A stretch of 37,345 nucleotides of DNA from an uncultured Hyphomicrobiales bacterium (GTDB taxonomy: Bacteria > Pseudomonadota > Alphaproteobacteria > Rhizobiales > Beijerinckiaceae): positions 1-37,345 of the forward strand of contig CAISZN010000546.1 in assembly GCA_903889985.1 (NCBI GenBank). Reading direction: 5' to 3'. Made by a program: the position numbers and the translations under genes. The notes under the pieces were generated by a model. The model was not told the origin of the DNA. It saw nothing but the letters and a program-made list of their open reading frames with translations, and ran no database searches. This document shows, piece after piece, positions 12,464-34,048 of this stretch. The number at the start of each line of letters is the position of its first letter. The first letter of the stretch is position 1.

Positions 12464-12690
12464 GACCAGTCCACAGTATTTGCCAGCTTGCAAATGCAAT
12501 CGTCAAGACACTGGCAGACTAACTGCGATTGCTTCCAGGACGACTGAATTGGCGCAGATAGTTTCTGGCCGAACTTGCAGAGTGCGCCTCTACCGGCATG
12601 GACCCGCATTTATTCGTGCAACTCAAGGAAAGCTCATGGATCTGATAGAAGCTGCCCACATCGTCGGCATTCGGCTGTTTTCATAAAACA

Positions 12691-14115
12691 TCAGGGTCGC
12701 AAGTCGAGAACGGTAATCAATGCGATCACGGCATTCTGAATAACGCTTTCAAGATGATCGTCGCTAGCGATATCGGTCAGCATCGGCGCACTCAGACTCA
12801 GGCGAAGGGCGGCCACCGGGGCCCCACCTCGAACGCCGCAAGACACCGGCTGGCCCAAGAGTATCGGCGTTTTGAGATGAGCAAGCTTCGCGTGCAATTG
12901 AGCAAGATCCTGTCGGCCCATCCAAGACCCGTCTCGTCCTTTGATCAAAAAGGTGAAAATACTTTGCCGGGCCGACCATGAATGAGCCCCTTCAAACTCT
13001 TCTCGGCCTAACAAAGGTGTCGACAAGAGTTCAAGTTGTGGGGCTTTATCTATGAATGTGCGCACGCTCTTGCTGAATCGATCAATGGCAGAAATCACCA
13101 ATGACTCGTTCAAAGCGCAGAATGCTGTCCATTCCGCCAATGCCGCGCGCCAACGCAAGACCAATCCCAAATTAGCTTCCTGGCTCCGTAAGACGTCACA
13201 CTCTGGTCTTACAACTTTGTTTCTGAAAGTTGGATCAGACGAACTGACATTTTTACGATCGCTTGGTATCAACAATGCCCCGGAAAATGTAGGACCTCCT
13301 AGAAACTTCGAGCCAGTTATGATCACCATAAAGCCATGGGCCAGATATTCCCGCACGACGCTTGGGCTCACCCTCATCTGACAGGCATCAACGACCACCT
13401 CAAGATCGGATCCCCATCTTTCCTTCATATTCAGAACACTTCGAAGCGAAGGCCAAAGAACCCCCGTCTTGCTGACATCAGTAACGACCAGAACCGCCCG
13501 TGATCCGCCATCTTTGCTGGCTTGAACTTGTCGATTGAGTTCAGATTCTATGGAGGCAGAATTCAGAGGGCTGCCATCTTCCTCTCGTGCTGAGATACCA
13601 ACCACAGCATGAGCGCGGCCGTCTGACGTCTTCTGCAATGCATGAGGAACGCCTGAACCAGTTTCTGCGTCTTCGATCGTCAGGAAGGTCAGTGGCAGCC
13701 CAACCATACGATTGAGCAAGATTGCTGCATTCCTGTGAGAATCTGTTCCAGACGGGCTGAGAATGCATCTTGGCGCTGCGTCGTCTCGGGCGGCATATCC
13801 CAGCAGGGTTAGAATTCCGGATTTGATTTGCAAAACATGAGACCTGTAAATGTCTACAGCTCTCTTGCCGGCTGCCAGTTCGCCATAAATGCTTTGGTAG
13901 ACTGAAAGGACTTCTCGATAGCCTCTCGCCGCGAGCGGCGACGCCGTCGTGGAAGAAAAGCTATAGGGAGATGCGACCGGCCGCAGTGGGAGGTTGTAAC
14001 GATTACGCCCCTCGCCATCCAATACTATTCTTTGATCGCCCCCCGACGTCAGGATATCGAACGCGGCAGCCTCGTGGTCCCTTTCATCAAGACGGGAAAA
14101 TGCGAGAGCACTCAT
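12691..14115 (-). CDS. Uncharacterised fold-type-I PLP-dependent enzyme (aminotransferase V / decarboxylase-like)
   Basis: ILSPSGTDSHRNAAILL; VVVDACQMRVSP (PLP-binding Asp); VIITGSKFLGGPTFSGALLIP (candidate Schiff-base Lys). ATG at 14115 overlaps the upstream stop in ATGA. Confidence 0.75.
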   Translation of the reverse strand: MSALAFSRLDERDHEAAAFDILTSGGDQRIVLDGEGRNRYNLPLRPVASPYSFSSTTASPLAARGYREVLSVYQSIYGELAAGKRAVDIYRSHVLQIKSGILTLLGYAARDDAAPRCILSPSGTDSHRNAAILLNRMVGLPLTFLTIEDAETGSGVPHALQKTSDGRAHAVVGISAREEDGSPLNSASIESELNRQVQASKDGGSRAVLVVTDVSKTGVLWPSLRSVLNMKERWGSDLEVVVDACQMRVSPSVVREYLAHGFMVIITGSKFLGGPTFSGALLIPSDRKNVSSSDPTFRNKVVRPECDVLRSQEANLGLVLRWRAALAEWTAFCALNESLVISAIDRFSKSVRTFIDKAPQLELLSTPLLGREEFEGAHSWSARQSIFTFLIKGRDGSWMGRQDLAQLHAKLAHLKTPILLGQPVSCGVRGGAPVAALRLSLSAPMLTDIASDDHLESVIQNAVIALITVLDLRP

Positions 14116-15536
14116 CGTGATCCCTCGTCCTGACCATAGCTTGCATCGAGCATGATGAGGCGATCGATAAATCCATCCATGTCGCTCTTGAGCGTCCGGT
14201 GATTCATGATGGCCGCTCTGACCACAGGATGACCATTGAGAAATGTCAGCGATGGCGCGAACTGACCGTCCTCGTGAAGCAGCTCCACAACTCGCCTGTT
14301 CCGTTCTGCTGCATTTTCGCCGATGAAGCCAAAGCATACGATGTTCAGCGAGACCGGCGCTGCCAAGGCAAGCGAATCTTCTGCGGCAATTCGATCCGCC
14401 AGATGCATGGCGCAATTGCAATTGTATCGAATGTTCTCGCCTATTGCCTCGAAGCCATAGGTTTTCAGCGTGAACCAGGCTTTAAGGGCCCTGAAACCTC
14501 TTGAAAGGTCGGGGCCGGAATCCGTGGGCCACCAATCCCCCGCAGCAAGTCCGCGACTGGCTCGGGAGAGATATGATGCTTCGGATGCAAAGGTCGCGTC
14601 ATGCAAGTCTGCAGAGCGGCTCAAAAGAAACCCTGCATCATATGGGACATGCGCCCACTTATGAAAATCAAAGGCAATGCTGTCCGCGTGCTGGATACCC
14701 TCGAATCGGCCAGCAAGATCGGTGTCTGCCATGGCAAAAGCGCCAAGCGCAGCATCGACATGGAAGTACATGCCCTGTGATTTGGCAAATTGGCTCAAGG
14801 CCGCCAGTGGATCGATAGATCCTGTATTTACACTCCCTGCATTTCCGATCAGCAAGAATGGCTTTAGACCGGCCGCCCGGTCCCTCTCAACAGTCTCGGC
14901 AAGCTCGACAAGATCAATTTTATAATATTCATCGGTGCCGATCAGACGAAGGAAATCCGACCCGACGCCAGCCAGCTCCATCGCCCGGGAGACACATCCG
15001 TGAACCTCCTTGGAGGCATAGGCGGTCAAGCCAGATGTATGCGCGTCATAGCCATGCGCCCTCGTCGCCACACCAATTGCATGGACCCGAGCGATCAAGA
15101 CTGCGAGGAAGTTTGCTTGCGAGGCACCAGTTGTGAATATGCCGCGTACGCCTTCTGGAAATGAAAAGAACGAACGCATCCATTCTGTGACTTCCAGTTC
15201 AACCCCAATGGCAGCGTGATGGCGCCCGCCACAATTGGCATTCATCGTCGCGCACATCAGTTCCGCGATCAGGCCGATCGGCGTTCCCGCGCCCTGGACC
15301 CACCCCATGAATCCTGGATGGATGTTACCTCCCCCATAGGGGAGAATCGTGCGCTCGAACTCTTCGAGGACCGAATCAAGGGCCTCACCATGCAGCGGAA
15401 TCTGGCTGGCGGCACGTGATGGCGGCGCCTGCCAAACCGGACGCTGCCTTATCGTCGCCAGATGATTTATCGCAATATCGATCGACCTGTGAGCGTACTC
15501 ACGAAAGCTATCCCAACTTTCCGGATCGAATGTCAT
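14112..15536 (-). CDS. Group II PLP-dependent decarboxylase (aromatic-L-amino-acid decarboxylase-like)
   Basis: HPGFMGWVQGAGTP; ATMNANCGGRHHAAIGVELEVTEWM; FHVDAALGAFAMAD; SIAFDFHKWAHVPYDAGFLL. Confidence 0.88.
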   Translation of the reverse strand: MTFDPESWDSFREYAHRSIDIAINHLATIRQRPVWQAPPSRAASQIPLHGEALDSVLEEFERTILPYGGGNIHPGFMGWVQGAGTPIGLIAELMCATMNANCGGRHHAAIGVELEVTEWMRSFFSFPEGVRGIFTTGASQANFLAVLIARVHAIGVATRAHGYDAHTSGLTAYASKEVHGCVSRAMELAGVGSDFLRLIGTDEYYKIDLVELAETVERDRAAGLKPFLLIGNAGSVNTGSIDPLAALSQFAKSQGMYFHVDAALGAFAMADTDLAGRFEGIQHADSIAFDFHKWAHVPYDAGFLLSRSADLHDATFASEASYLSRASRGLAAGDWWPTDSGPDLSRGFRALKAWFTLKTYGFEAIGENIRYNCNCAMHLADRIAAEDSLALAAPVSLNIVCFGFIGENAAERNRRVVELLHEDGQFAPSLTFLNGHPVVRAAIMNHRTLKSDMDGFIDRLIMLDASYGQDEGSR

Positions 15537-15724
15537 CGGAAGATGGCCGCGGCCGTCCGCATAGAAGCAGAGACTGACCCAGTTCCATGCCTAGCAACTG
15601 CCATACCAGAAACCTTCACCTGCATTGGCTCGATGCTGATGCAATACTATTCTGCGCAACCCTTGCGCAGCGCTGGTCAGCCATCGAATGATGCAACCTG
15701 TCTAGCATTGAGATCGGTCGGTGA

Positions 15725-16990
15725 CTACGATGATTGGGCCTCAGCTTCAATCATCACATGTTCAGGCCTGTCTTCGAGCGCCGCATTTGTGAGCATATCC
15801 TGAAACGACCTGAACAGCTTATGCATGATTGGCTTTTTATAATGGAACATCGGGTCGTCATCCAAATCATGGACGATCATGATGTTGTCAGCTTCAAATA
15901 CCAGCATGCGACCATCTGAAATCGGGATACAATCGACAGCAAAATAGTCTACCGCATATGCGTCACAAAGCTTTTCCAATGCGGAGGCATAGCGCTTGGC
16001 GAAGACGGAATCGAAGCTTTCCATCCATTCCGCTTCTTCTGCGCGACGCTCCGGATGAAGGTTCATCTCTGCGCTGAGATAGTGGACCATCCAATGCGAT
16101 GAGATGGCCATATGACAGGCAAATGGGCGGCGCTTGATAAAGACGATGCGTTGCTTCCTGTAGAGCCCATCCGGACTCCGATATTCAATGAAAGGCGCCA
16201 TATAAAAGGTGCCTTCCGTCATGCGTTGCAAGTAGTTGGATAAAGAATCTGGCGATTCAATTAACTCCAACCCATTTCCTGCATGTGTACCTACGGGCCT
16301 CACAATGACAGGCATGGAGTAACCAGGCAGGAACTCTTCGACGCGACGTCTTCCCGCGGCAATTTCTTCGATCTCAGCGCGACTGACAATGACCTGGGGC
16401 GGTGACAGGATTGCTGGATCGTTTGACAGCTCTCGATGGAGCCTATCCCTCGTCATTTTGGCGATAAGACCAACATCGCGATTTATAATTGGCGGATGGT
16501 CGTGCCAGGCATTCAGCAACTCCTCCACCCTTCGAAGCACCCCCTGATTGGCAGGCGATTCCCCGATCGCCATGAATATGACATCTACGTCAGGAATTTC
16601 CGAGAGGGTCAGGGTTTTTTCGTCGATAAATACGGTGTAGAGCATGAAATCTGATTGCACGAGGAGGAAGTCGATCGGCGTATTGGCCGTCATGTCCCCT
16701 TCCACCATCAAGGCCGCAACACGCAATCCCTTGCCCGTTCCATGTTTTCTCTTGTAAATTTTTTTGAAGCGTAGCGCAGCCGATTGCATTTCCCGGCCCT
16801 TTTGCGGCTGGCCGGTAGCATGAACCATGACGGAGAGGTCCAGGAGCGCTTCGAAATCCGTGGGATCCTGCGTATAGCGGTTTACGAGCGCCTCCCATAG
16901 TTCGGGTATCGCCTGCTCGTTATAAAGGGTTCGAAACAGTACCGTATTGCCAAGCAGTAATCGCTCAGAGGGGGTTGAGCTGGCGGGCAT
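15725..16990 (-). CDS. ATP-grasp-like protein with helical/TPR-like N-terminus
   Basis: MPVIVRPVGTHAGNGLELIES resembles an ATP-grasp lysine/glycine loop; FAVDCIPISDGRMLVFEADNIMIVHD resembles the metal-binding Glu/Asn segment. N-terminal ALVNRYTQDPTDFEALLDLSVMVHATGQPQKGREMQSAALRF is TPR-like. Confidence 0.65.
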   Translation of the reverse strand: MPASSTPSERLLLGNTVLFRTLYNEQAIPELWEALVNRYTQDPTDFEALLDLSVMVHATGQPQKGREMQSAALRFKKIYKRKHGTGKGLRVAALMVEGDMTANTPIDFLLVQSDFMLYTVFIDEKTLTLSEIPDVDVIFMAIGESPANQGVLRRVEELLNAWHDHPPIINRDVGLIAKMTRDRLHRELSNDPAILSPPQVIVSRAEIEEIAAGRRRVEEFLPGYSMPVIVRPVGTHAGNGLELIESPDSLSNYLQRMTEGTFYMAPFIEYRSPDGLYRKQRIVFIKRRPFACHMAISSHWMVHYLSAEMNLHPERRAEEAEWMESFDSVFAKRYASALEKLCDAYAVDYFAVDCIPISDGRMLVFEADNIMIVHDLDDDPMFHYKKPIMHKLFRSFQDMLTNAALEDRPEHVMIEAEAQSS

Positions 16991-28959: not shown

Positions 28960-29889
28960 TTGAATACACTCTTCCTCACCCATCCAATCGCGCTTCAGCA
29001 TGAGATGGGCGAAGGCCATCCCGAAAGGCCTGACCGCCTGCGGGCCATCGAGCGGATTCTCGAAGCCGAGCAGTTCCAATCACTTCACCGGGATCTGGCC
29101 CCGCGCGGCACCATCGAGGCCGTGGTCCGGGTCCATCCACGCGACTATTACGACGTGCTGGAGCGCGAATCCCCCGATCAGGGCTACGCCCAGCTCGACG
29201 CGGACACGGTCATGAACGAGGCGAGCTTCGAGGCCGCCATGCATGCGGTGGGCGGTGCCTGCTTCGCCGTCGACGAGGTCATGACGAAGCGCTGCGACAA
29301 TGCCTTCGTGGCCATGCGACCTCCCGGCCACCATGCCGAGCGCGCAACCCCCATGGGCTTCTGCTTCTTCAACAATGCCGCCATTGCGGCCCGTCACGCC
29401 CAGGCGGTGCATGGGGCGCAGCGCGTCGCCATCATGGATTTCGACGTCCACCACGGCAATGGCACCCAGGATATCTTCTGGGCGGACCCTACGGTCATGT
29501 ATGCCTCGACCCATCAGATGCCCCTCTATCCGGGCACCGGGGCCGCGAGCGAGACCGGCGAGCACGACAACATCGTCAATGCGCCCCTGCGGTCGGGCGA
29601 TGGCGGGGTCGCCTTCCGCGAGGCAATGGAGGCGAAGATCCTGCCCCGGATTGAGGCCTTTGCACCGGATCTCGTGATCATCTCGGCCGGCTTCGACGCC
29701 CACCGCCGCGATCCCCTTGGCGGCCTCTCCTTCGTTGAAGAAGACTTTGGCTGGGCCACGGCCAAGCTCATGGAGATTGCCGACAAGCGCGCCAGGGGCC
29801 GCCTCGTGTCCCTGCTGGAGGGTGGTTACGACCTTGAAGGATTGGCACGCTCAGTCTCGACGCATATGAAGAGGCTGATGGGTGCCTGA
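28960..29889 (+). CDS. Histone deacetylase-family protein (acetoin utilisation/APAH-like)
   Basis: RPPGHHAERATPMGFCFFNNAAIAARHA; MDFDVHHGNGTQDIFW; SAGFDAHRRDPLGGL. TTG start. Confidence 0.93.
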   Translation: MNTLFLTHPIALQHEMGEGHPERPDRLRAIERILEAEQFQSLHRDLAPRGTIEAVVRVHPRDYYDVLERESPDQGYAQLDADTVMNEASFEAAMHAVGGACFAVDEVMTKRCDNAFVAMRPPGHHAERATPMGFCFFNNAAIAARHAQAVHGAQRVAIMDFDVHHGNGTQDIFWADPTVMYASTHQMPLYPGTGAASETGEHDNIVNAPLRSGDGGVAFREAMEAKILPRIEAFAPDLVIISAGFDAHRRDPLGGLSFVEEDFGWATAKLMEIADKRARGRLVSLLEGGYDLEGLARSVSTHMKRLMGA

Positions 29890-29980: not shown

Positions 29981-31228
29981 TCATGAACTGTAATTTTGAA
30001 TGGGCTCATTCAAGTCTGGGATAAGGAATATCCCATAGATAGATACTAAAGTGATTAGCCCAATGGCGATTGCTAGCGGCACCTGACTAATCTGGTACGC
30101 TCCAATAAATCCTCCGCACAAGGTAGAAAAAACAGCGGCCCATACACGGCTTATGGAATCTCCAGCTGCAATGATCAAATGAAGTGATTCTGGAGGAGAT
30201 ATTCTTTGACCAATAGAAACGACAAGCGTCCGAGCCGCAGCTGTTGAGATGCCAAGTAGCGAGCAAACCAGCAAAATATAGAACACATGCAGCTCAACCA
30301 ACGACATGATCATAAAAATACCAGCGCAACACGACGCAATTCCGGCAATTATCCCGAGCATGATAAGCTTACCAGATGCATTGCTCTTCATAAACTGTAA
30401 TATTATATGGCTGCCAAACACCATACCCGAAGCAGATATTGCCAAACACAGACCATAATATCGCGCATAGTCGGCAGTTGGAATCATTTCTAACAGCAGT
30501 GTCGGAATCAACGCAGCCCAAAATGTACCCATTAGAGGCCCGAGTAGCCGAGCAGACGTCAAGCGGCGAAGCTTCGGGCTTTGCAGAATTTGGATAAACC
30601 CACCAAGTGGAGAACTTCTACGATTACGATGGATATCTGGGCAATGGCGTCGCAATTGCCACGCCCAATAGGCCGCAACCACCGAAAGAAAAATCACATC
30701 CAAATAAAGACAAAACCAAATCTCAAGAAAAAATGACAGAACCGCGACAATCGCCGGAGCAACTGTAGAAGCAGCCCCCTCATAAGATTGCAATCTATTG
30801 ATAATTATTTCGCGCTGCTTGACGTCGACCGCCACCCGATTCAGATAAAAATATTTTAGCGGATTAAGTAGGCCGTCTAAACATGAAAGCGAAAACTGGC
30901 ATGCGACGAGAAACGGAAAGAAGTCTACGTACGTTAAAGCAAATAAGGAACCTAATAGAAGAGCTATTTTACCCAAGGCGACAATGAAAATAGCAAAAAA
31001 ACCGATTCGTGGCTGGACAACAAACGGTATTAAAAATCCTGATGTAACGGTACCGACGTTCATGGCGACCCAAAGCGTTACAGCAGCAGTCGCTCCAAAA
31101 TGAGTTGCTGCAATCGTTATGATCGCAACCCTTGTAAGAGCCAAACCCAGCTGGCTTAGCAATGCCGCAGCAACGAAAATATTTGCCGAGAATCGGGCCG
31201 GCTCTTCCTCGCGTTTTTTATTTTGCAT
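29981..31228 (-). CDS. MFS-like multi-TM transporter (candidate exporter of island B)
   Basis: 415 aa with many hydrophobic TM segments. Start overlaps the end of the PP-loop gene by 11 nt; low GC. Confidence 0.75.
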   Translation of the reverse strand: MQNKKREEEPARFSANIFVAAALLSQLGLALTRVAIITIAATHFGATAAVTLWVAMNVGTVTSGFLIPFVVQPRIGFFAIFIVALGKIALLLGSLFALTYVDFFPFLVACQFSLSCLDGLLNPLKYFYLNRVAVDVKQREIIINRLQSYEGAASTVAPAIVAVLSFFLEIWFCLYLDVIFLSVVAAYWAWQLRRHCPDIHRNRRSSPLGGFIQILQSPKLRRLTSARLLGPLMGTFWAALIPTLLLEMIPTADYARYYGLCLAISASGMVFGSHIILQFMKSNASGKLIMLGIIAGIASCCAGIFMIMSLVELHVFYILLVCSLLGISTAAARTLVVSIGQRISPPESLHLIIAAGDSISRVWAAVFSTLCGGFIGAYQISQVPLAIAIGLITLVSIYGIFLIPDLNEPIQNYSS

Positions 31229-32420
31229 TGAGAAGCCGCTTATGCGCCAGCCGCAATGCCATAGGTATAGGCCCTAACGTATCAAACCCTAAATCAGCGT
31301 CAAAAACTAGCGGGCTCCCTAAGCGTGTCGACAGTTCTGCAGACGAATCTAATAGCTTTTCACCGACCCCGGGGAAATCAGAAGTCAGCACGTAAGCCAA
31401 CTGATAGGCCAAAGTCCGACCAGGAGAGAAGCTTGGATACCGACCTTCATAATTCGCAAAAGAGTGCTTCGGATAACACCCGTCGATAATCTTCTTCGGT
31501 GTCTTCCAGAGAGGGAATAGAAGCTTTACGCCATCTACTTTTCGCACCGGCAGTTCGGGTGGCATCCCACCGCGTAAATTCCAAGCGAAGTATTCTGCAA
31601 TTAAGTCCTCGAAATTGATGCCTGTACAAATGTGCCTTGCATTGTTTAATTTGGCAATATGAACCAGAACTCTACGAATGATAAGTGTGCCCAAGAACTC
31701 ATAATCTTCACCAGGAAATTGCTTTCCAAATCGGCTTATAAGATCCGGCCCTTCACCGGTTGCACCTAAAATCTCTCGAGTTTCAAGCTCAGATACCACA
31801 TTCAGTTTCAATGAAAGTTGATCGCAGATATCTTTTGCCCGAGAGATCCCAGCGTCCCACTCGCCAGGCCCCGAAATGATCACTGGAATAATCTCTATAT
31901 TTTTATCGGATTTATATTTTTCAAGCGCCGATATCAGCGCGTTGCTATCACCGCCACCGCTAACACCGATCACGATTTTAGCAACGCCGCTGCCGGACTT
32001 TTCAAAATATTGATCCAACATTGATGAGACATTCTCTTCAACAACCTGGATGCATTCAGCCCGACTGAACCGTCTAAGAATTGTGTTTCCGGATCGTTGC
32101 GACAGGTCACGGTATAGATATTCAGCCACGGCTCCATTCCCGTCCGCCGGATCAGAAATCTTTAAATGAGCATGTATGTAGCTTGTTGGGTCAATGTTTC
32201 TTTGCAAGAAAGCAGCAACTAAAGTATTGCGTCCAAACTCCGACATTTTTGTTCCCAAGCAGGGGAAAAGCCGAAAACCAGAATCCCCGACCTCCTTTAC
32301 ATAAAGCGCAACTGAGGCCCAAGCTATCTGCGCGCTATTAAGAACATCCAGCACAGTATCGTCATCGCCATGCGGAAGATCGAACATTCCATGCGTTGAA
32401 AACAATCGAAGAATTGGCAT
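31218..32420 (-). CDS. PP-loop ATPase / asparagine-synthase-like (adenine nucleotide alpha hydrolase superfamily) enzyme
   Basis: KIVIGVSGGGDSNALISALEKY PP-loop (SGGGDSN near 31941-31961); HICTGINFEDLIAEYFAWNLRGG. Lacks an N-terminal catalytic Cys2 glutaminase signature. Confidence 0.75.
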   Translation of the reverse strand: MPILRLFSTHGMFDLPHGDDDTVLDVLNSAQIAWASVALYVKEVGDSGFRLFPCLGTKMSEFGRNTLVAAFLQRNIDPTSYIHAHLKISDPADGNGAVAEYLYRDLSQRSGNTILRRFSRAECIQVVEENVSSMLDQYFEKSGSGVAKIVIGVSGGGDSNALISALEKYKSDKNIEIIPVIISGPGEWDAGISRAKDICDQLSLKLNVVSELETREILGATGEGPDLISRFGKQFPGEDYEFLGTLIIRRVLVHIAKLNNARHICTGINFEDLIAEYFAWNLRGGMPPELPVRKVDGVKLLFPLWKTPKKIIDGCYPKHSFANYEGRYPSFSPGRTLAYQLAYVLTSDFPGVGEKLLDSSAELSTRLGSPLVFDADLGFDTLGPIPMALRLAHKRLLNAK

Positions 32421-32445
32421 TGAAAATACTCAATTTTGGAAAAAT

Positions 32446-32469
32446 GCGCCTGCCAAAAAAGGTAGGCGC
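32446..32469 (-). terminator. Stem-loop between small peptide gene and PP-loop gene (attenuator or partial terminator)
   Basis: Minus strand GCGCCTACC-TTTTTT-GGCAGGCGC followed by ATTTTTCC; 9-bp stem with one mismatch. Confidence 0.55.
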
Positions 32470-32492
32470 GAAAAAGTTCTTTTGTACAGGCC

Positions 32493-32708
32493 TCACCAGG
32501 AGGCGGGCTCAATAGATGCAGCATAAATAAAATTGAGCTTGCATTCCGAGGCGAACATCTCGCGCCTGTTTACCCTAAGATCTTCTAGCAGTTTTAGAGA
32601 GACTGGTTGCGTAAGTATCGTGGCTGTCCGCACGCATGTCCCAGCTTTAATATCTTTCATTTCATAGCCCCGAGACGCGCCATGAACTTCATGTTTAAAA
32701 GCATTCAT
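32493..32708 (-). CDS. 71-aa small peptide, candidate precursor peptide
   Basis: MNAFKHEVHGASRGYEMKDIKAGTCVRTATILTQPVSLKLLEDLRVNRREMFASECKLNFIYAASIEPASW. AGGAG Shine-Dalgarno shortly upstream of the ATG. First gene of a PP-loop/MFS operon. Confidence 0.65.
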   Translation of the reverse strand: MNAFKHEVHGASRGYEMKDIKAGTCVRTATILTQPVSLKLLEDLRVNRREMFASECKLNFIYAASIEPASW

Positions 32709-32758
32709 TTTTAACTCCTAATGAGGTAAAATAGGCAAAACTATGCAACAACAACCAA

Positions 32759-32787
32759 ATGTTGTAGAGCAATTTTGTTACAGTCAA
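32759..32787 (-). promoter_or_regulatory. Putative sigma70-like promoter for the small peptide operon
   Basis: Minus strand TTGACT - 17 bp - CAACAT, about 50 bp upstream of ATG 32708. Confidence 0.4.
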
Positions 32788-32830: not shown

Positions 32831-34048
32831 ATGCTCAGCGCCAGTGTCGTGTCCGACAGCGACACCCACACGGAAAACCGCACGCTCGCCATCATCTGCG
32901 TGGTGCATCTGATCAGTCATTTCTACTGGCTGCTGTTCGTGCCGATCCTGCCCGCTCTGAAGGACCTGCTCGGCGTGTCCTTCGTCGAGTTGGGCTTTGC
33001 CATCACAGTCATGAATCTGGTCTCGGCCCTGACCCAGGCGCCCACCGGCTTCATCGTCGACCGCTTCGGTGCGCGGCTGATGCTCATCATCGGCATGGTC
33101 CTGGGGTCAGCCGCCTTCATCGCCATCGGCCTGATGCCGACCTATCCGGTCCTGCTTGGCGCAGCTGCCATGATCGGCCTTGCCAATGCGGTCTACCATC
33201 CAGCCGATTATTCGATCCTTGCGGCGGAGATGAACCCGCAGCGCATGGGCCGCGCCTTCTCGATCCATTCCTTTGCCGGCTACCTTGGCTTTGCCGTCGC
33301 CCCGCCCATCATGCTGACCGCCACCCAGTTCGGTGGCCTGCGCTTCGCCCTCGTGCTGGCGGGCGTTTTGGGTGCGGTCTGTGCCTTGCCGCTCATCCCG
33401 GGCATGCGTCATGAACGCAAGCCGAAGAAGGGCAATGCCGCAGAAGCACCGAAGTCTTCGGCCAGCAGCCTGATCACCCCGGCGGTGCTCCTGCTGACGC
33501 TGATGTTCACCACGCTGAACCTGTCGACGAACATCCTGCAGACCTACATGGTCGTCTCGCTGGAAAGCCTGCATGGCCTGCCGCGCAACGTGGGCGCATG
33601 GGCACTGACGGTTTTCCTCTTCGCGCTGGTCGGCGGCATCCTGCTCGGAGGCCTCTTTGCTGATCGCGTGAAGCACCAGTCGCTCATCACTTCGGGCGGC
33701 CTCGCCCTGTCAGCCCTGTTCGTGCTGGCCGTGGGCTTTCTCGGCCTGCCGGCCGCAGCAACCATCGGCGCATTGGCGGTTGCCGGGCTGCTCGCCGGCA
33801 TCATCGTGCCCTCGCGCGACATGCTGGTGCGCAACGCCTCGCCGCCCGGCGCGGTGGGCCGGGTCTTCGGCATCGTGACGACCGGCTTCAATTTCGGCGG
33901 CATGGTGGCGCCGCTCGTCGGTGGCTGGCTGATCGATCGCGGCGCACCGCTGTGGGTCTACATCACCTCGGCGAGCTTCATGTTCGCCTCGGTGGCTATC
34001 TCCGTGCTGGCCGATCGCAGCTCTGCGAAGAAGCCTCTCACCCCTTGA
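32831..34048 (+). CDS. MFS transporter
   Basis: APTGFIVDRFGARLMLIIGMVLG; multi-TM; GGGAGG ribosome-binding site upstream of ATG 32831; high GC. Confidence 0.9.
   Translation: MLSASVVSDSDTHTENRTLAIICVVHLISHFYWLLFVPILPALKDLLGVSFVELGFAITVMNLVSALTQAPTGFIVDRFGARLMLIIGMVLGSAAFIAIGLMPTYPVLLGAAAMIGLANAVYHPADYSILAAEMNPQRMGRAFSIHSFAGYLGFAVAPPIMLTATQFGGLRFALVLAGVLGAVCALPLIPGMRHERKPKKGNAAEAPKSSASSLITPAVLLLTLMFTTLNLSTNILQTYMVVSLESLHGLPRNVGAWALTVFLFALVGGILLGGLFADRVKHQSLITSGGLALSALFVLAVGFLGLPAAATIGALAVAGLLAGIIVPSRDMLVRNASPPGAVGRVFGIVTTGFNFGGMVAPLVGGWLIDRGAPLWVYITSASFMFASVAISVLADRSSAKKPLTP

Follow-up and report, generated by a model that had tools for sequence, protein, structure and literature searches.

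The window, a 37,345-nucleotide stretch of DNA from an uncultured Hyphomicrobiales bacterium (contig CAISZN010000546.1), carries on its minus strand a compact cassette of three genes: for a small peptide, a PP-loop ATP pyrophosphatase-type enzyme and a transporter of the major facilitator superfamily (MFS) type. Comparison with homologous loci suggests a family resembling the ribosomally synthesized and post-translationally modified peptides (RiPPs) and defined by a new enzyme type. The original prediction was right about the three open reading frames (ORFs), including the 11-nt overlap of the enzyme and transporter genes, and about their position in a low-GC block (about 45% GC) between higher-GC core genes for a histone deacetylase (HDAC)-like protein and an MFS protein. 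GC content is 44-49% over 30.0-33.0 kb, and 59-68% on either side. The features of the locus are as follows (aa, amino acids; precursor residues are numbered back from the stop codon).

28960..29889, plus strand: left flank, core gene for a histone-deacetylase-family protein (PF00850), which adjoins the right-flank MFS gene in eight congeners
29981..31228, minus strand: MFS-type transporter gene, 415 aa, overlapping the enzyme gene by 11 nt; homologous by BLASTP to the transporters of loci L023, L025, L004 and L024
31218..32420, minus strand: gene for the PP-loop ATP pyrophosphatase-type enzyme, 400 aa (invariant SGGGDS, AlphaFold2 model, fold search)
31944..31961, minus strand: PP-loop motif SGGGDS (sequence and homolog alignment)
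32196..32420, minus strand: predicted ubiquitin-like (beta-grasp) domain at the N-terminus of the enzyme, about residues 1-75 (model and Foldseek)
32440..32469, minus strand: terminator-like hairpin and U tract between the precursor and PP-loop genes (8-bp stem, folding energy)
32493..32708, minus strand: predicted precursor peptide gene, 71 aa, ending LEDLRVNRREMFASECKLNFIYAASIEPASW (ORF, tail pattern, purifying selection in relatives)
32496..32516, minus strand: codons of the C-terminal seven residues SIEPASW, the proposed core, with Ser at -7 and Ser at -2 (S/T conservation at -7; the leader/core boundary is a proposed one)
32715..32719, minus strand: Shine-Dalgarno sequence AGGAG of the precursor gene (sequence)
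32831..34048, plus strand: right flank, core MFS gene (PF07690, congener comparison)

The 71-aa ORF has its own Shine-Dalgarno sequence, as had been claimed, in the form of AGGAG 6 nt upstream of the ATG. The plausible promoter also claimed for it was not confirmed, since a simple promoter scan finds no sigma-70-like site upstream. In almost all homologous loci examined, a small ORF lies just upstream of the PP-loop gene; in L012, L015 and L022 it lies elsewhere in the locus, and was found later. The pairing spans Proteobacteria, Actinobacteria, Bacteroidota, Myxococcota, Bacillota and candidate-phyla genomes, and the proposal of a precursor thus survives the comparison that had been named as its main hazard, namely that the ORF might not be conserved with the PP-loop gene. 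When numbered back from the stop codon, the precursor tails of about 40 loci align without gaps and follow a common pattern: L/V/I at -14, E at -13, any residue, I/V at -11, C/L at -10, G/C at -9, A/T/P at -8 and S at -7, after which six residues that vary by group precede the stop. Ser or Thr occupies -7 in 36 of 40 precursors. A scoring matrix for the C-terminal 31 residues was built from the other loci, with the window excluded; the background of the statistics was the ORF tails of the window and the homologous loci. The window ORF scores 17.0 bits and ranks first among 655 window ORF tails, the best non-precursor of 11,239 tails scoring 3.6. Every tail outside the training set that scores higher is a precursor that had earlier been overlooked or left out of the set.

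The window peptide, which ends ..ASW with Ser at -2, has in common with the precursors of one group of relatives (group A below) L-31, E-30, R-27, A-19, S-18, L-14, I-11, A-8 and S-7, and a leader element, [N/G][F/Y]xxK, LE..R, is conserved in that group and in the window's own branch. Codon comparison of precursors gives a nonsynonymous divergence (dN) of 0.05 vs a synonymous divergence (dS) of 1.1 for L033 and L005, and dN 0 vs dS 0.24 for L008 and L009. These comparisons indicate that the precursor relatives are under purifying selection at the protein level, and that the 71-aa ORF is a genuine coding sequence whose association with the PP-loop enzyme is conserved. Conserved upstream elements followed by six variable last residues, in a cassette without a protease gene, give the peptide a candidate leader/core layout. 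The hairpin that follows the gene has an 8-bp GC-rich stem, then A and five U (-13.4 kcal/mol, z -2.5). A comparable hairpin is present in about half of the 20 loci tested, judged against a small control, and a consensus terminator scanner did not list the one between the precursor and enzyme genes.

The motif SGGGDSN, correctly noted at the outset in the 400-aa protein, is invariant in all 32 aligned homologs, as are about twenty further residues; C315 is the sole invariant cysteine of the alignment. Matches to PP-loop models in Pfam and NCBIfam are all weak (ATP_bind_3, NAD_synthase and TilS-type) and far below family cut-offs, and a profile search matches NcsA (E 2.3e-9), with weak sequence similarity. 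In agreement with the profile search, a fold search with the AlphaFold2 model (pLDDT 90.8) returns the tRNA thiolases TtuA and NcsA at about 1e-12 to 1e-10 (TtuA, E 2.7e-12), then TilS and NadE. A ubiquitin-like domain is predicted for the first 75 residues, with Foldseek matches (all E > 0.001) that include TtuB (5gha_H, TMt 0.73). TtuB is the ubiquitin-like partner of TtuA, and TtuA takes in the TtuB tail. The likeness to TtuA and NcsA thus comprises the closest catalytic-domain fold, the SGGxDS loop and the TtuB-like N-domain. The window enzyme differs from them, however, in having its N-domain fused, in its sporadic occurrence, in its linkage to precursor genes, and in lacking the three cysteine ligands of the iron-sulfur (Fe-S) cluster, including the CxxC: the CSFCG stretch of NcsA aligns with a Cys-less EFLGT. 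Because these ligands are replaced, Fe-S chemistry of the TtuA/NcsA type is unlikely. TilS and NadE are the next closest folds and the source of weak profile matches, but those matches fall far short of the cut-offs, the C-terminal part is another one, and the window enzyme has a predicted, linked peptide substrate. The model indicates a PP-loop protein of the TtuA/TilS type, having an intact pyrophosphatase loop and a ubiquitin-like N-domain. We know of no PP-loop enzyme of the tRNA-thiolase type that acts on peptides.

The description of the enzyme as asparagine-synthase-like did not hold. Acyl-adenylate chemistry by PP-loop enzymes is established for lasso cyclases, beta-lactam synthetase and asparagine synthetases, and the likeness to them is limited to this chemistry in general. 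The window enzyme has no Pfam match to Asn_synthase (PF00733), and beta-lactam synthetase is only a distant hit of the fold search (TM-score 0.25), for which reasons homology to asparagine synthase, lasso cyclases or beta-lactam synthetase was rejected. There is likewise no lasso protease and no RiPP recognition element (RRE) beside the enzyme. RRE-bearing RiPP classes differ in that the cassette has no winged-helix RRE, the N-domain of the enzyme being ubiquitin-like, and has no further protein.

The transporter itself has no Pfam match. It is homologous (BLASTP 6e-13 to 2e-11) to proteins of L025 and L023 that match MFS_1, and through these homologs the proposed MFS identity is upheld. Homologous transporters, all with a match to MFS_1, occupy the corresponding position in Bordetella hinzii (L023), which has the same three-gene cassette, in Xenorhabdus (L004), in an alphaproteobacterium (L024) and in Parachlamydiales (L025). 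These sequences indicate that an MFS transporter is the recurrent third gene in the window and in those loci. The PP-loop gene of B. hinzii (L023:7992-9178) appears frameshifted near its 5' end as sequenced, from pseudogene formation or an assembly error.

The cassette is a recent, horizontally acquired gain, inserted between two core genes. The HDAC-family and MFS genes that flank it are direct neighbours in eight same-genus genomes, with about 30-90 bp between aligned ends. The PP-loop gene was not found in 50 other genomes of the genus, and it is sporadic at larger distances: of about 1,000 genomes sampled at ranks from family up to phylum, only a few have it. The adjacency of the flanks in congeners and the absence or sporadic presence of the enzyme elsewhere are the grounds for regarding the cassette as newly gained at a clean site. 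The host assembly has 8.6% contamination, yet both flanks keep the genus's own gene order, the insert aside. A phage origin was rejected because neither phage records nor viral contigs gave a match, and a role in anti-phage defence for want of a PADLOC match. A second lower-GC block (50-55%) lies at 12690-16990 of the window and encodes a decarboxylase dependent on pyridoxal phosphate (PLP; PF00282), with an AsnC-type regulator just beyond; neighbouring long ORFs have no Pfam match, one being PLP-enzyme-like and one ATP-grasp/TPR-like by eye. This block may be a second acquired biosynthetic island.

Four plasmids and 43 genome loci carry homologs of the enzyme, the last few of the loci being remote. 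In a tree of 46 enzymes the grouping tracks the type of neighbourhood and not host phylogeny. Group A is surrounded by many tailoring enzymes (flavin monooxygenase, NAD_binding_9, amidase, M28 peptidase, phosphodiesterase); group B, which includes the window, has the MFS gene only, with a Clp-like ATPase in places; group C has TauD with P450 or carbamoyltransferase; group E has a nucleotidyltransferase, and its members are intermingled with those of B. The nearest relatives of the window enzyme are from Janthinobacterium (44% identity) and Bordetella. In group D a gene for histidyl-tRNA synthetase (HisRS) lies directly downstream of the PP-loop gene at four of four loci, with two HisRS genes per genome, and the three precursors identified all end ..AHI. 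In group F, from Patescibacteria, a single-chain gene resembling phenylalanyl-tRNA synthetase (PheRS) adjoins the enzyme gene and precursors end ..AFN or ..AFF; all three testable genomes have two PF01409 genes. L038, with a precursor ending ..ATK, has one PF01409 gene only. Elsewhere, no other synthetase was seen among the strongest NCBIfam and Pfam matches (top 25 families) listed for 67 further neighbours, a search that a weak match could escape.

Several relatives have features of their own. The most divergent, on Geobacillus plasmid pGS18 (L006:4463-9247), has a small peptide ending ..TCATDPITSW, an enzyme that carries at its C-terminus a Cys-rich stretch resembling a zinc finger, and nucleoside phosphorylase-like, MFS and ClpC-like neighbours. 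Clp-like ATPases are found in L004, L024 and L006, and on the alphaproteobacterial contig the cassette is preceded upstream by genes for a MoaA-like radical SAM protein and a HIT-domain protein (L024:4295-5876). An enolase gene lies within 8 kb of the group A PP-loop genes of L011, L012, L013, L015, L016 and L017, as an extra copy in some genomes; it may have a role as target, in immunity or in biosynthesis, and since it is the only copy found in three genomes, a general immunity function is uncertain. In two candidate-phyla loci (L032:11935-13056 and L038:6120-7379) the neighbours of the PP-loop gene include genes for a ThiF-family protein (cluster 22) and for one more protein common to both loci (cluster 37); the ThiF enzyme would provide a link to MccB-like chemistry. 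Two Butyrivibrio genomes (L048, L049) have a different, distantly related PP-loop protein beside the same two conserved proteins, of 597 aa and 103 aa (clusters 24 and 40), possibly another uncharacterised system.

Among the known systems nearest to the cassette are microcin C and McC-like peptidyl-nucleotides (mccABC). In these and in the cassette, the precursor gene comes first, an ATP-using enzyme second, and a dedicated exporter is present; the exporter, corresponding to mccC, is represented by the adjacent MFS gene in the window, L004, L023, L024 and L025, with putative export function. A hairpin or terminator between the precursor and enzyme genes and a C-terminal spacing of seven residues are also shared, since in microcin C clusters mccA and mccB are separated by a terminator and the precursors are seven residues long (PMC6495379). 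Some relatives of the cassette have HIT-type and Clp-type genes; HIT hydrolases (PMC7157772) and ClpA homologs (PMC12250964) have been reported for microcin C clusters. There are also differences. The window enzyme has a PP-loop pyrophosphatase fold, whereas MccB is of the ThiF/E1 type; the precursor is 71 aa with a long leader and ends ..ASW instead of C-terminal Asn; and no GNAT or MccF-like gene is in the window cassette. Because MccB, the defining enzyme, is absent, the cassette is not a member of the microcin C family, although it may work like one.

On balance, we favour the view that the cassette makes a microcin-C-like, C-terminally ATP-activated and exported RiPP by means of a new enzyme type. 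The core of the original prediction, a precursor with an ATP-activating PP-loop enzyme and an MFS protein, microcin-C-like and outside canonical RiPP classes, stands in this form; its likeness to asparagine synthase and lasso cyclases does not. As in RiPP clusters, a linked and conserved precursor gene is present, and its conservation with the enzyme makes it very probable that the peptide is the substrate. The enzyme would bind the leader and admit the C-terminal tail to its active site, as TtuA does with the TtuB tail, which would explain a conserved pattern counted from the last residue. A carbonyl of the last residue or close to it would then be adenylated at the expense of ATP, activation near the C-terminus being somewhat favoured, and a C-terminally modified seven-residue (S-x6) product would be exported by the MFS protein. 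By analogy with microcin C the product is somewhat more probably an exported antibacterial than something else; with the synthetase copies beside relatives, it would most likely be a Trojan-horse agent, either an aminoacyl-adenylate mimic or a peptidyl-nucleotide. A synthetase-type target within the family is possible at a tentative level, and a phosphoramidate or nucleotide product as in microcin C is doubtful. Equally speculative is the idea of a new RiPP class, in which the TtuA/TilS-type enzyme converts precursor tails to aminoacyl-adenylate mimics, residue -2 selects the synthetase hit (His, Phe, Ser, Ala, Gln and others), and a spare synthetase confers immunity on some of the producers. 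Several observations weigh against the microcin-C-like view. Without a ThiF match in Pfam or NCBIfam, the enzyme belongs to a different family from MccB; the precursor carries a long leader and does not end in Asn; and there is no protease in the window. Precursors of the HisRS clade have Ala or Pro at -7. The association of HisRS and PheRS with His and Phe at -2 is a lead, not proof, and the match could be coincidence because the synthetase copies come from only two clades, neither of them in the window's own branch. With Ser at -2, the window precursor would call for SerRS, of which a single gene was found in its genome, and an immunity copy there was rejected. Many group A loci have enolase and oxidative enzymes, which means that products and targets differ within the family.

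The main rival is ring closure on Ser(-7), or sulfur or amide chemistry. The C-terminal carboxylate would be activated only for attack by Ser(-7) or Cys to close a seven-residue macrolactone or macrolactam, or for a sulfide or ammonia swap giving a thiocarboxylate or amide, and the exported signal or antibacterial would contain no nucleotide. Ser or Thr exactly at -7 in most precursors is consistent with it, as are the invariant C315 and nearest folds that are sulfur-transfer enzymes partnered by a ubiquitin-like carrier; ThiF-like enzymes also close peptide rings via C-terminal adenylation (PMC12250964). The Ala or Pro of the HisRS clade counts against this reading too, however, as does the absent CxxC, and the synthetase, Clp-like and HIT neighbours favour an intracellular target over a signal, so that we consider it somewhat unlikely. 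It is improbable that the peptide is only a scaffold, on whose C-terminus a small molecule is built and later released while the peptide is recycled, as in peptide-aminoacyl-tRNA-ligase systems. An anchored pattern with last six residues that vary between groups would suit such a role, as would the many extra redox enzymes of group A, but the three-gene window version has no further tailoring enzymes, and the variable residues change by group in step with adjacent synthetase genes. Less probable again is a regulatory leader peptide or attenuator, with the enzyme acting on tRNA or on a small molecule exported by the MFS protein. The terminator-like hairpin right after the ORF and the fold nearest tRNA-modifying enzymes point that way; yet attenuation would need regulatory codons rather than a stop-anchored pattern, the C-terminus is conserved as amino acids across phyla with synonymous change, the leader element is conserved as well, and the enzyme is sporadic, unlike tRNA enzymes. 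Whether the protein belongs to a tRNA-modifying or housekeeping family was a question raised at the outset: the resemblance is there, by sequence and by fold, but the lack of the Fe-S CxxC and the sporadic occurrence mean that it is not a housekeeping enzyme. An ordinary housekeeping tRNA-modifying enzyme beside a chance ORF therefore deserves hardly any credence: the weak matches to TilS, TtuA and NcsA models that suggest it are far below cut-offs, sporadic presence and the empty site in congeners led to its rejection, and the chance-ORF part is already refuted by conservation with the enzyme.

In openly licensed literature (subscription papers and preprints being outside the search), no description was found of PP-loop RiPPs or of RiPPs with synthetase or enolase self-resistance. 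The tail pattern common to relatives in many phyla is a pointer to a family of ribosomally made peptides, possibly antibacterial, that appears not to have been described before. A precursor pattern common to Streptomyces through Patescibacteria, next to one and the same kind of PP-loop enzyme, would define a RiPP family. Having no RRE and no known RiPP enzyme, such a family would probably go unnoticed in mining that is class-specific or based on RREs. Synthetase inhibitors of the microcin C kind are of antibacterial interest, and the spare HisRS and PheRS genes, together with the His and Phe penultimate residues, offer a directly testable idea on targets. If residue -2 does select the synthetase, the family would be a naturally programmable one of Trojan-horse synthetase inhibitors.

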